This document shows, piece by piece, positions 1 through 3,024 of a stretch of DNA of 34,774 nt. Positions within the stretch are counted from its first letter, which is position 1; every line of letters begins with the position of its first letter. The stretch is taken from assembly GCA_014237145.1 (NCBI GenBank), contig JAAXOC010000011.1, positions 1 through 34,774 of the forward strand, in the 5' to 3' direction. This DNA is from ANME-2 cluster archaeon (GTDB lineage: Archaea > Halobacteriota > Methanosarcinia > Methanosarcinales > Methanocomedenaceae). The notes under the pieces were generated by a model. It saw only the letters and a program-made list of their open reading frames with translations. It was not told where the DNA came from and did not search any database. A program made the translations under genes and the position numbers.

Positions 1-620
1 CTCCTCACCACATCCCGATCAAACACTCGCCTCCCATCTACCATTCTCGACGTGCGCCTTCTCTCCTTTACCTTCCGCAGATCACGCTCCCTAAACTCCC
101 TGTGTGCAGTCATCATCACCAGTGCATCCGCACCCTCAAGAGCCTTATAAACATCCTTCTCCACTTTCCCATACCTGTCCAGATACCCATCCTCAATATA
201 AGGATCAACTATCCACACACAAGCCCCCTTCTTCCCCAATTCCTCAACAAAAACCTCAACAGGACTCTCCCTCGCATCGCCCACATTCTCCTTATACGAA
301 AATCCCAGCACAACAACCTTCGGATTCTTCACAGCCCTCTCGCATTCATTCAGCGCATCCACCAGCAACTCAAACACATGCAGCGGCATATAATCATTAA
401 CAGCCCTGCCCGCTGTAATAACCTTCGAATGATACCCCAGCTCCTCAGCCTTCTTCTCCAGGTAATAAGGGTCAACAGGCAAACAGTGCTCGCCCACACC
501 CGCACCCGGGTAATACTGGATCATGGGTTTATCATGGACTGTGAGGGGGTGTTTGTCGGTGACTTTGGTTAGGAGGTAGAGGCGTGAGCCTATGTCGTCT
601 TTGAGGGTTATGCCTTTCAT
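1..620 (-). CDS. Chimeric fragment: RmlA-like N-terminus joined in frame to the C-terminal half of a nucleotide-sugar dehydrogenase (3' end outside window)
   Basis: An open frame of 206 codons starts at the ATG at 620-618 and runs off the left edge. Residues 1-34 (MKGI..., GSRLYLLTKVTDKH, VHDKPMI) match the start of glucose-1-phosphate thymidylyltransferases (RmlA/RfbA). From about residue 36 the protein becomes the C-terminal part of a UDP-GlcNAc/ManNAc-type dehydrogenase: GAGVGEHCLPVDPYYL, which carries the catalytic Cys, then ITAGRAVNDYMP and LGFSYKENVGDARESP. The dehydrogenase's N-terminal NAD-binding Rossmann domain is missing, and the RmlA GGxGTRL nucleotide-binding loop has become DDIGSRL. 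Neither enzyme can be complete. I infer a deletion or recombination inside a surface-polysaccharide cluster that fused two gene ends; a pseudogene is the likeliest reading. Functional parents would make dTDP-sugars and UDP-ManNAc-uronate for surface glycans. Confidence 0.75.
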   Translation of the reverse strand, partial: MKGITLKDDIGSRLYLLTKVTDKHPLTVHDKPMIQYYPGAGVGEHCLPVDPYYLEKKAEELGYHSKVITAGRAVNDYMPLHVFELLVDALNECERAVKNPKVVVLGFSYKENVGDARESPVEVFVEELGKKGACVWIVDPYIEDGYLDRYGKVEKDVYKALEGADALVMMTAHREFRERDLRKVKERRRTSRMVDGRRVFDRDVVR

Positions 621-851
621 AGTTGTATTGGTCCTGATAAACATAGAAATAAAGTGTTGATTTTGATTGTAAGTTAGTTTAGTATAGGTAATAAATATTG
701 TATTAGTTACTTAACGGTTATTATTTGATTTTTTCTAACATTCTTTGTTTTGGGGAGCGTGTTAGGCGCAGGCGGTGGCTGTAGAAATATATAATTGAAG
801 TAATATTGTGCCACACGGAATGCAAGTTTAATGTAACAATGTCTTTGCGCA
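621..851. other. AT-rich intergenic stretch
   Basis: No convincing ORF, RNA gene or repeat is visible between the chimeric dehydrogenase fragment and the small ORF ending at 852. It presumably holds the promoter of the leftward chimeric gene. Confidence 0.4.
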
Positions 852-1085
852 CTAAGCAGCTGCCATTGAGGTACTTTCCTTAACTATCACATGGGCTTCG
901 TATCCAAGGCGGAATAAGAACTGCTCACAATCTTCCCACGTCATTCCAAACGCCTTCACATCTGCAACACCAAGCCTGCTGACAATATCACGAAGAGTCT
1001 CATAATCCTGAGGTTCGTAATCGGCTTCCATCATCATTGATTCAGCCCAATCTACCAGTTCTGTCAATGAAATCTGATGCTGCAA
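852..1085 (-). CDS. Small acidic protein of unknown function (ISLTELVDWAE family)
   Basis: This is a 77-aa acidic ORF with ISLTELVDWAE at the N-terminus and a VADVKAFGMTWEDCEQFL core. I recall similar short proteins in cyanobacteria and archaea, sometimes beside toxin-antitoxin genes, but cannot confirm a function. The only start in the open frame is TTG at 1085; the codons upstream (TAT, GCG, ATC, ATC) run to a TAA stop. The native 5' end may therefore have been lost or mutated when the neighbouring reverse-transcriptase element arrived 28 bp upstream. Product uncertain; an antitoxin is only a guess. Confidence 0.5.
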   Translation of the reverse strand: MQHQISLTELVDWAESMMMEADYEPQDYETLRDIVSRLGVADVKAFGMTWEDCEQFLFRLGYEAHVIVKESTSMAAA

Positions 1086-1113
1086 ATACGCGATGATTTA
1101 TCCAGCTATATCT

Positions 1114-1617
1114 TTACGAGTGATTATCATAACTTTCATCTCTAATTTTTCTGTGCCCTGCGTCTTCAGGATATTTTTGATGTATTTCAATAAGTATACC
1201 ATTGCTATTATAGATTTCCTGATGGAATTTTAAGGTTTTTTCCATTGAATCAAAGGTTTCACACTTTATGCCGTATTTCCTTGCTCTTTGGCATGTACAT
1301 CGTCCGAACTCGATGATCTTACTCTTCTCTTCAGAGATCGTAAGGCCGAATTCACCCATTCGCTGCCTCAGCGCAATTCCAAATGCTCTGGCTTCTTCCT
1401 CTTTTTCGAAACAGACGACGAAATCATCTGCATATCGAACTAGCTGGGCATAACCAGTTAGCTGTGGAATCACCTCAGTCTCAAACCATAAGTCCAGCGC
1501 ATAGTGGAGATATACATTAACAAATAATGAATCCATCTCCTGCAATGGGACTATGTCAAACGAAAGCCGCTTACGGAAAATCCGTACTAGCGGTTTGATG
1601 TGGAGGGGGCGCCGCAA
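1114..1617 (-). pseudogene. Group II intron-type reverse transcriptase remnant
   Basis: Residues 34-105 read NVYLHYALDLWF, an intact RYADDFVV catalytic motif (residues 61-68), FGLTISEEKSKIIEFGR and a later ETFD. This is the palm region of group II intron-encoded reverse transcriptases, which mediate intron splicing and retrohoming. Only about 167 codons remain against the usual 400-600. The expected PQG box before NVYLHY is degraded (VPLQEMDSLF), and homology stops after ETFD, before the maturase and endonuclease domains. The apparent start is a TTG inside a repeat fragment (1612-1635) shared with 14577-14600, so the ORF begins at a junction. It is a decayed mobile-element fragment, not a working enzyme. 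Confidence 0.8.
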
Positions 1618-1686: not shown

Positions 1687-3024
1687 CTATTTCATTAATT
1701 TTTGGATAATAGTATCAAATTTTTGTGATCTATAATATACTAATTTCTTTTTCCCAGAGGTAGTTTTTTCCAATAGCCCCAATTTTTCTAAATAAATAAT
1801 ATCTTTTCTAGCTGTTTCATAAGCAGTATTGAACCTATTTTGTATCTCTTTTATTGTAAATGAAAACTTAGGGTCATCAAAAATAAATTTTAAAATATAT
1901 ATTTGTCTATCATTTATGTCTTTTATTATCCTGAAATCATATAGATCCCGTTTTTCCTGAATTTTCTCATTTATATACTTTTTAAGATTGTGAAAGGCTA
2001 AGTCTGTTGTTTTTAGCTGATAATTTATAAAATAAGTTAAATCATTTTCATCGAGTTCAGTGTATAAATATGCTTTTGCATATTGTGTGCGTGATTTAAT
2101 AATAATTCTTGAAATAGACATATACTCTATTAACCAGTAATCTCTTGAAAGCAAATACCAATAAAAAATTGCTCTTGCTGTTCTTCCATTTCCATCTACA
2201 AAAGGATGGATATACCCAATTAGAAAATGCAATATAATGGCTCTGATCATTGGATGAATAAATCTGGTCTCATCACTTTCATTTGCAAAATTACAAAAAT
2301 CGTCAATTAATTGTTCTATTTTTTTATAGTCAGGGGGATGGTAAACAACATTCCCTGTTAAATCCACTACAGATATGTCATTTGCAGCTCTATATTTACC
2401 TTCGTTACTTGGATCTTCCAAAGTGTTTTTGGTAATTGAAGTATGAATTTCAAGTATTAGTTCAGAAGTAAGTTCTTTATTTGTTAATGGTTTTATTTTT
2501 TTAATTGTATTATAATTGTTGAGAATCATTTGTTCAGACCTGTTTTTTGGTTTTCCCCCCTTTCTCAACATCGATTTGGCATGTTCTCTGGTAGTAACAG
2601 CTCCTTCTATTTGACTTGAAGCAATTGCCTCTTCCATAATTGAATTAATTAAATATTGTTTTTTATCTTCCTGTGGTATAATATTTCCTTCAAGATTTCC
2701 CACTAAATTAAGATCAAATTCGTGAATTTTTTGGTTGATATAAGGAGTTAAATTATACTTAAACTCAAATCCTTCGAGGTCACTTAATTTTATTATTTCA
2801 GGATGGGAGTCTCTTTGTGTTTTGGTGATTTTCCATAATATTTCAGGACTGATCTGTAGGGAAATTTTCTTATGTTTTAATTCTGACCAATATAAATATC
2901 TATTATAAATATCTAAAAATGATTGTCTAAATGATTCGTTGCTTAAATATTTATAAATTTCATCAATTTCGTTTGCTTTAATTTCTGATGATGGAGGTTT
3001 TTCTGGAATTTTCATAATAACCAT
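1687..3024 (-). CDS. Fic-family AMP-transferase with inhibitory helix and C-terminal winged helix
   Basis: Fic proteins transfer AMP (or a related group) from a nucleotide to hydroxyl side chains of target proteins. The catalytic motif HPFVDGNGRTAR is complete at residues 273-284. An N-terminal inhibitory motif of the S/T-xxx-E-G/N type, SSQIEG, lies at residues 136-141 and marks a class II, self-inhibited Fic. Residues about 370-445 look like a winged helix (TIKEIQNRFNTAYETARKDI, then LEKLGLLEK), so the protein may bind DNA and control itself. The gene is strikingly AT-rich compared with lhr or the folate cluster, suggesting acquisition. Start: the ATG at 3024, or the ATG three codons in (3015). 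A palindromic site lies directly upstream. Cytoplasmic; target unknown. Confidence 0.9.
   Translation of the reverse strand: MVIMKIPEKPPSSEIKANEIDEIYKYLSNESFRQSFLDIYNRYLYWSELKHKKISLQISPEILWKITKTQRDSHPEIIKLSDLEGFEFKYNLTPYINQKIHEFDLNLVGNLEGNIIPQEDKKQYLINSIMEEAIASSQIEGAVTTREHAKSMLRKGGKPKNRSEQMILNNYNTIKKIKPLTNKELTSELILEIHTSITKNTLEDPSNEGKYRAANDISVVDLTGNVVYHPPDYKKIEQLIDDFCNFANESDETRFIHPMIRAIILHFLIGYIHPFVDGNGRTARAIFYWYLLSRDYWLIEYMSISRIIIKSRTQYAKAYLYTELDENDLTYFINYQLKTTDLAFHNLKKYINEKIQEKRDLYDFRIIKDINDRQIYILKFIFDDPKFSFTIKEIQNRFNTAYETARKDIIYLEKLGLLEKTTSGKKKLVYYRSQKFDTIIQKLMK

Follow-up and report, generated by a model that had tools for sequence, protein, structure and literature searches.

A fused reading frame at the end of the contig

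The window analysed here, the whole stretch of 34,774 bases, is contig C11 of an archaeal assembly (G000) of 2.97 Mb in 118 contigs, in which a gene for McrA is present and identifies the organism as a methanogen or methanotroph-type archaeon. An open frame on the reverse strand (644..3) encodes, over 214 residues, the start of RmlA followed by the C-terminal half of a nucleotide-sugar dehydrogenase, and the peptide across the joint reads ..DKPMIQYYPGAGVGEHC.. in this frame. Neither a stop nor a frameshift interrupts the 214 codons, and the frame meets the start of the contig before any stop, leaving its 3' end unseen. An earlier note had described an in-frame chimera of these two genes with no stop at the joint; matches to TIGR01207 and TIGR03026 within one frame confirm the chimera, and the frame is indeed open, over all 214 residues. 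The range given there, 515-620, holds the RmlA part, whereas the dehydrogenase part lies outside it, at 515-3. The frame is made up as follows.

518..620, reverse strand: 5' remnant of rmlA, its first ~34 codons, with the nucleotide loop destroyed (TIGR01207; protein and DNA matches)
507..518, reverse strand: the joint, ATC-CAG-TATTACCC (compared with rmlA of G003/G079 and with intact dehydrogenases of L046, G062 and others)
3..515, reverse strand: C-terminal half of the dehydrogenase, cut by the contig end (PF00984, PF03720, alignment with G062)
621..644, reverse strand: 8-codon upstream extension from an alternative ATG at 644 (open reading frame listing)

Alignment with relatives places the native rmlA start at the ATG at 620. 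Counted along the frame, RmlA occupies roughly residues 9-42, and the dehydrogenase takes over at residue 43-44. Residues 10-46 of the frame are assigned to RmlA by NCBIfam (TIGR01207, E 6e-4), with a score of 19.0 bits over model positions 1-36 of 286 only, which lies below the curated cut-off of 360.65 bits. The same part is 70% identical in amino acids to RmlA of relatives over 37 residues (E 8.5e-8) and matches, as DNA, an rmlA remnant in a genome of the same genus, G003 (E 5e-21); judged from these alignments, the match to RmlA exceeds chance. The glycine-rich nucleotide loop LAGGxGxRLxPLT is not retained, the RmlA half reading LKDDIGSRLYLLT, and the damage to the loop that had been claimed is real: LAGGTGSRL has become LKDDIGSRL. 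The changes in the loop (A7K, G8D, G9D, T10I and P16L) all fall at sites that are invariant in intact relatives. Over the whole remnant, 31 of 34 residues are invariant among intact RmlA relatives, and 10 of these 31 are replaced in the window and none in the G003 remnant.

Polarised against G003 and G079, the 15 derived substitutions in the RmlA half are spread over codon positions 1/2/3 as 4/7/4, and 15 random changes without a stop would be expected under neutrality to change 9.7 residues (5-95%: 7-12), against the 10 observed. This even spread, together with a count of changed residues that is as expected, points to neutral decay of the RmlA half. Since the chance of no stop arising there is then ~0.84 (a figure for 16 changes), the open frame is uninformative. 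An orphan rmlA piece in G010, which differs from a longer copy on the same contig by three nonsynonymous changes and one synonymous change, shows the same picture of neutral decay.

Residues 44-206 are classed as nucleotide sugar dehydrogenase by NCBIfam (TIGR03026, E 4e-38), at 131.4 bits over positions 254-413 of 413 only and below the curated cut-off of 189.8 bits; Pfam assigns PF00984 (positions 53-93) and the UDP-binding domain PF03720. The retained part is the end of the central domain, with the catalytic Cys, and the UDP-binding domain, while no N-terminal NAD-binding family was matched in the fused frame by Pfam or NCBIfam and the start of the central domain is missing as well. Without these two parts, the dehydrogenase half cannot be a dehydrogenase. 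The catalytic Cys and PF03720 are present, but GGHC reads GEHC. This half is 76% identical in amino acids to the intact dehydrogenase of G062, from residue 260 of the latter onwards, and likewise to that of G081 when a frameshift there is allowed for. The pairwise dN/dS to G062 is ~0.08, a low ratio that mostly reflects history before the joining, and only 3 of 63 invariant sites are changed. Second-position changes number 9 against 4-5 in intact genes, a slight excess, and release from constraint probably came later here than in the RmlA half.

The joint and its counterparts in related genomes

At the position of the joint, rmlA relatives read ATC TAT TAC CC (TATTACCC), and dehydrogenase relatives read a variable codon followed by TAT TAC CC or a synonymous string (TATTACCC in L046, TATTATCC or TACTATCC in others), both parents encoding Tyr-Tyr-Pro in the same phase. 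With this motif in both genes, joining them was enough to leave the frame open, and selection need not be invoked. One extra codon (CAG) stands at the joint and can be placed on either side of it, so that the crossover cannot be fixed within ~12 bases. Homology to rmlA ends at DKPMIYYPL in G003 and at DKPMI(Q)YYP in the window.

A search of 186 genomes of the order, with the joint region as the query, listed no other match that crosses the joint. Apart from the frame's own, none of the listed matches starts before residue 41, and the majority fall within ordinary dehydrogenases, in frames of 430-480 amino acids. A search of IMG/VR with the fused frame returned no relative. In PLSDB, each of the best 10 of 770 plasmid records is a single annotated dehydrogenase; nine match only from residue 41-44, and the tenth, from Streptomyces, aligns weakly (32%) starting at residue 13. 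Homologues that share the full-length fused architecture as an ordinary family, which the earlier note had said would refute its reading, were not found in the 186 genomes, and we reject such a family on the results from all three sources. A narrow search of the literature found nothing on an RmlA-dehydrogenase fusion.

Separate intact dehydrogenase genes, which the earlier note had proposed looking for, do occur in relatives; they are ~450 amino acids long and lie beside an epimerase gene. The dehydrogenase adjoins an SDR sugar epimerase in G062, G081, G181, G149, G134 and two Methanofastidiosum genomes, and in one of the two Methanofastidiosum loci the SDR gene lies ~1 kb from it. TviC is the nearest model for the epimerase; the dehydrogenase is matched by those for TviB and UDP-ManNAc dehydrogenase, and no score reaches an equivalog cut-off. 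In G003, an rmlA 5' remnant of ~38 codons, which ends at nearly the same codon as that of the window, stands directly upstream of the SDR gene, and the dehydrogenase follows. The G003 dehydrogenase is a different allele (46% to that of G062), and the layout is therefore a model and no direct ancestor of the window. The 3' part of rmlA, the 5' part of the dehydrogenase gene and a close SDR gene were not found elsewhere in the window's own assembly, which is 99.95% complete, the best matches there to the missing rmlA, dehydrogenase and SDR pieces being distant paralogues (40%, 39% and 46%, respectively). An intact donor elsewhere in the genome was likewise sought and not found.

These comparisons bear on whether the RmlA leader and the UDP-binding half could together form a new regulatory or sugar-nucleotide-binding protein, as an open frame throughout and a well-preserved dehydrogenase half might suggest. 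However, the architecture is private to one genome among the 186 searched, the RmlA half is neutral and its nucleotide loop destroyed, the dehydrogenase half has no NAD domain and carries GEHC for GGHC at the catalytic Cys, and an open frame is expected by chance. We consider such a protein very improbable, and give as little credence to the narrower view that the frame is translated from the former rmlA start into a stand-alone nucleotide-sugar-binding protein consisting of the UDP-binding half. A functional fusion would be an odd new sugar-nucleotide-binding protein; the evidence points the other way.

Gene wreckage around the fused frame and in relatives

The 1.1 kb beyond the fused frame is also wreckage, made up of a repeat, an interrupted small gene and a second chimera.

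776..849, no strand assigned: dispersed intergenic imperfect palindrome, CACCGCAAAG..GCAAAGAC..TTGCG..CTTTGCGGTG, with copies elsewhere
852..1139, reverse strand: small gene that an in-frame TAA interrupts close to its start (97% in DNA to the uninterrupted G002 copy, L092)
1114..1617, reverse strand: second chimeric frame, a central part of a group II intron reverse transcriptase joined to the end of another small gene (TIGR04416 189-284; L092)

Further copies of the palindrome lie on this genome's contigs C81, C63 and C9, and relatives have them too, several per genome across the family. The joint of the second chimera is at ~1253, and the small gene that supplies its last 45 codons there is whole in G002 (93% to the L092 frame 953..678). 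The small-gene block (window 842-1254, L092 403-814) is 97% identical between G000 and G002, whereas a dehydrogenase gene common to these two genomes is only 80% identical, which makes a recent transfer of the block likely. The block is laid out like a two-gene toxin-antitoxin pair; a known toxin-antitoxin family for the two small genes is unsupported by Pfam or NCBIfam, and no RNA family reaches the gathering score at the locus. In both genomes the block lies beside a scrap in which an RmlA start is joined to dehydrogenase sequence. An intact-looking Fic/DOC protein with a C-terminal HTH (SoFic-like; window 1687-3024, reverse strand) adjoins the wreckage.

A block that probably moved so recently raises the question of whether a mobile element, or the transferred block itself, carrying an rmlA scrap, landed in a dehydrogenase gene and left a conversion or insertion scar. 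The same block does stand in G002 beside another dehydrogenase fragment, a C-terminal piece behind a short RmlA-like start, but the stretch common to the two genomes stops at ~842, leaving ~220 bases between it and the rmlA remnant, and G003 carries its own remnant without any such block. An insertion of this kind is, in our judgement, improbable.

The second chimeric frame, only 0.6 kb away, could also be read as a sign of misassembly, by the assembler or through strain mixing, in which case the rmlA remnant and the dehydrogenase would lie apart in the cell. Between the joint and the contig end lie ~515 bases, and the genome has several of its glycan genes on short contigs (5-10 kb), suggestive of strain variation or of breaks there. 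Against this, the two parents are identical at the joint over only ~8 bases, less than a k-mer assembler would need for a false bridge, and no search of the almost complete assembly brought up the remaining rmlA, SDR and dehydrogenase pieces in another place. Furthermore, the rmlA piece is already decayed, so that a dead fragment would be there in any event, and the G003 remnant is cut at almost the same codon beside an SDR-dehydrogenase pair. Misassembly, the main rival reading, is unlikely, if somewhat less so than an insertion.

Fragments of rmlA or the dehydrogenase gene are also found in G013, G010 and G021. G099, a relative from the same order, has a 36-codon dehydrogenase piece enclosed in a small frame of 87 codons (L096 6102-6365, reverse strand) with a PIN-domain-like start, directly after a UPF0175 gene and near a frameshifted SDR gene. 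A 5.7 kb contig of G013 (L097, G013:C110) carries several C-terminal dehydrogenase pieces and a C-terminal rmlA piece, which sit downstream of copies of the window's palindromic repeat in what amounts to a gene graveyard. The glycan loci of this lineage appear often to lose and shuffle genes.

Origin of the fused frame

The fused frame is most probably a deletion scar, a decaying pseudogene that is present in the assembly. Two genes are each partly lost at one joint, and the missing parts are absent elsewhere in the assembly, as expected of a deletion-fusion; constraint has been lost in the RmlA half, and the dehydrogenase half shows only the slight second-position excess. Counting against a pseudogene are the 214 open codons, the 76% identity of the dehydrogenase half to intact relatives, its dN/dS of ~0.08 and the extra CAG, which is unexplained. 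The earlier note had left the choice between a recombination scar in a surface-glycan cluster and a fusion with a new role. Comparative evidence favours the former, as a deletion, and tells against the latter, given the private architecture, the neutral RmlA half, the missing NAD-binding domain and neighbours that are also scraps.

From the conserved SDR-dehydrogenase pair and the layout in G003 we infer an ancestral arrangement, a single deletion and an order of events. In the ancestor, rmlA, whole or already truncated to its 5' part, would have stood upstream of a TviC-like SDR epimerase and a TviB-like dehydrogenase. A deletion of ~1.8 kb (estimated from distances in G003, and more if rmlA was whole) would then have joined rmlA at codon ~34-37 to the dehydrogenase at codon ~260, with Tyr-Tyr-Pro, in the same phase in both genes, keeping the frame open. 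The RmlA piece, its constraint lost, decayed neutrally; the dehydrogenase piece would have been deprived of its cofactor domain by the joining and have probably ceased to function then.

On this reading the fused frame is an ordinary instance of gene decay at a glycan locus with rapid turnover, and gives a worked case of how chance can account for an in-frame chimera where two genes have a short motif in common, in the same phase. It also indicates quick loss and shuffling of surface-glycan genes in an mcr-bearing archaeal lineage.

Compared with known systems, the window aligns without gaps and from the same start codon with the first ~34-37 residues of the RmlA/RfbA glucose-1-phosphate thymidylyltransferase (TIGR01207; the short archaeal form of G079 and G006), but ~85% of the enzyme is gone and 10 of the 31 invariant residues in the retained part are changed. 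With nucleotide-sugar dehydrogenases of the TIGR03026 type (TviB- or UDP-ManNAc dehydrogenase-like) it has in common a C-terminal half at 76% (G062) or ~64% (Methanofastidiosum L046), including the catalytic Cys and the UDP-binding domain; unlike these intact enzymes, it has no NAD-binding domain, retains nothing of the first half of the central domain and reads GEHC for GGHC. It also resembles deletion-fusion pseudogenes such as the rmlA 5' orphans of G003 and G010 and the dehydrogenase scraps of G099, G002 and G013, which are similarly truncated glycan genes joined to unrelated sequence, some of them in frame, although each has its own breakpoint and none shares the window's joint.
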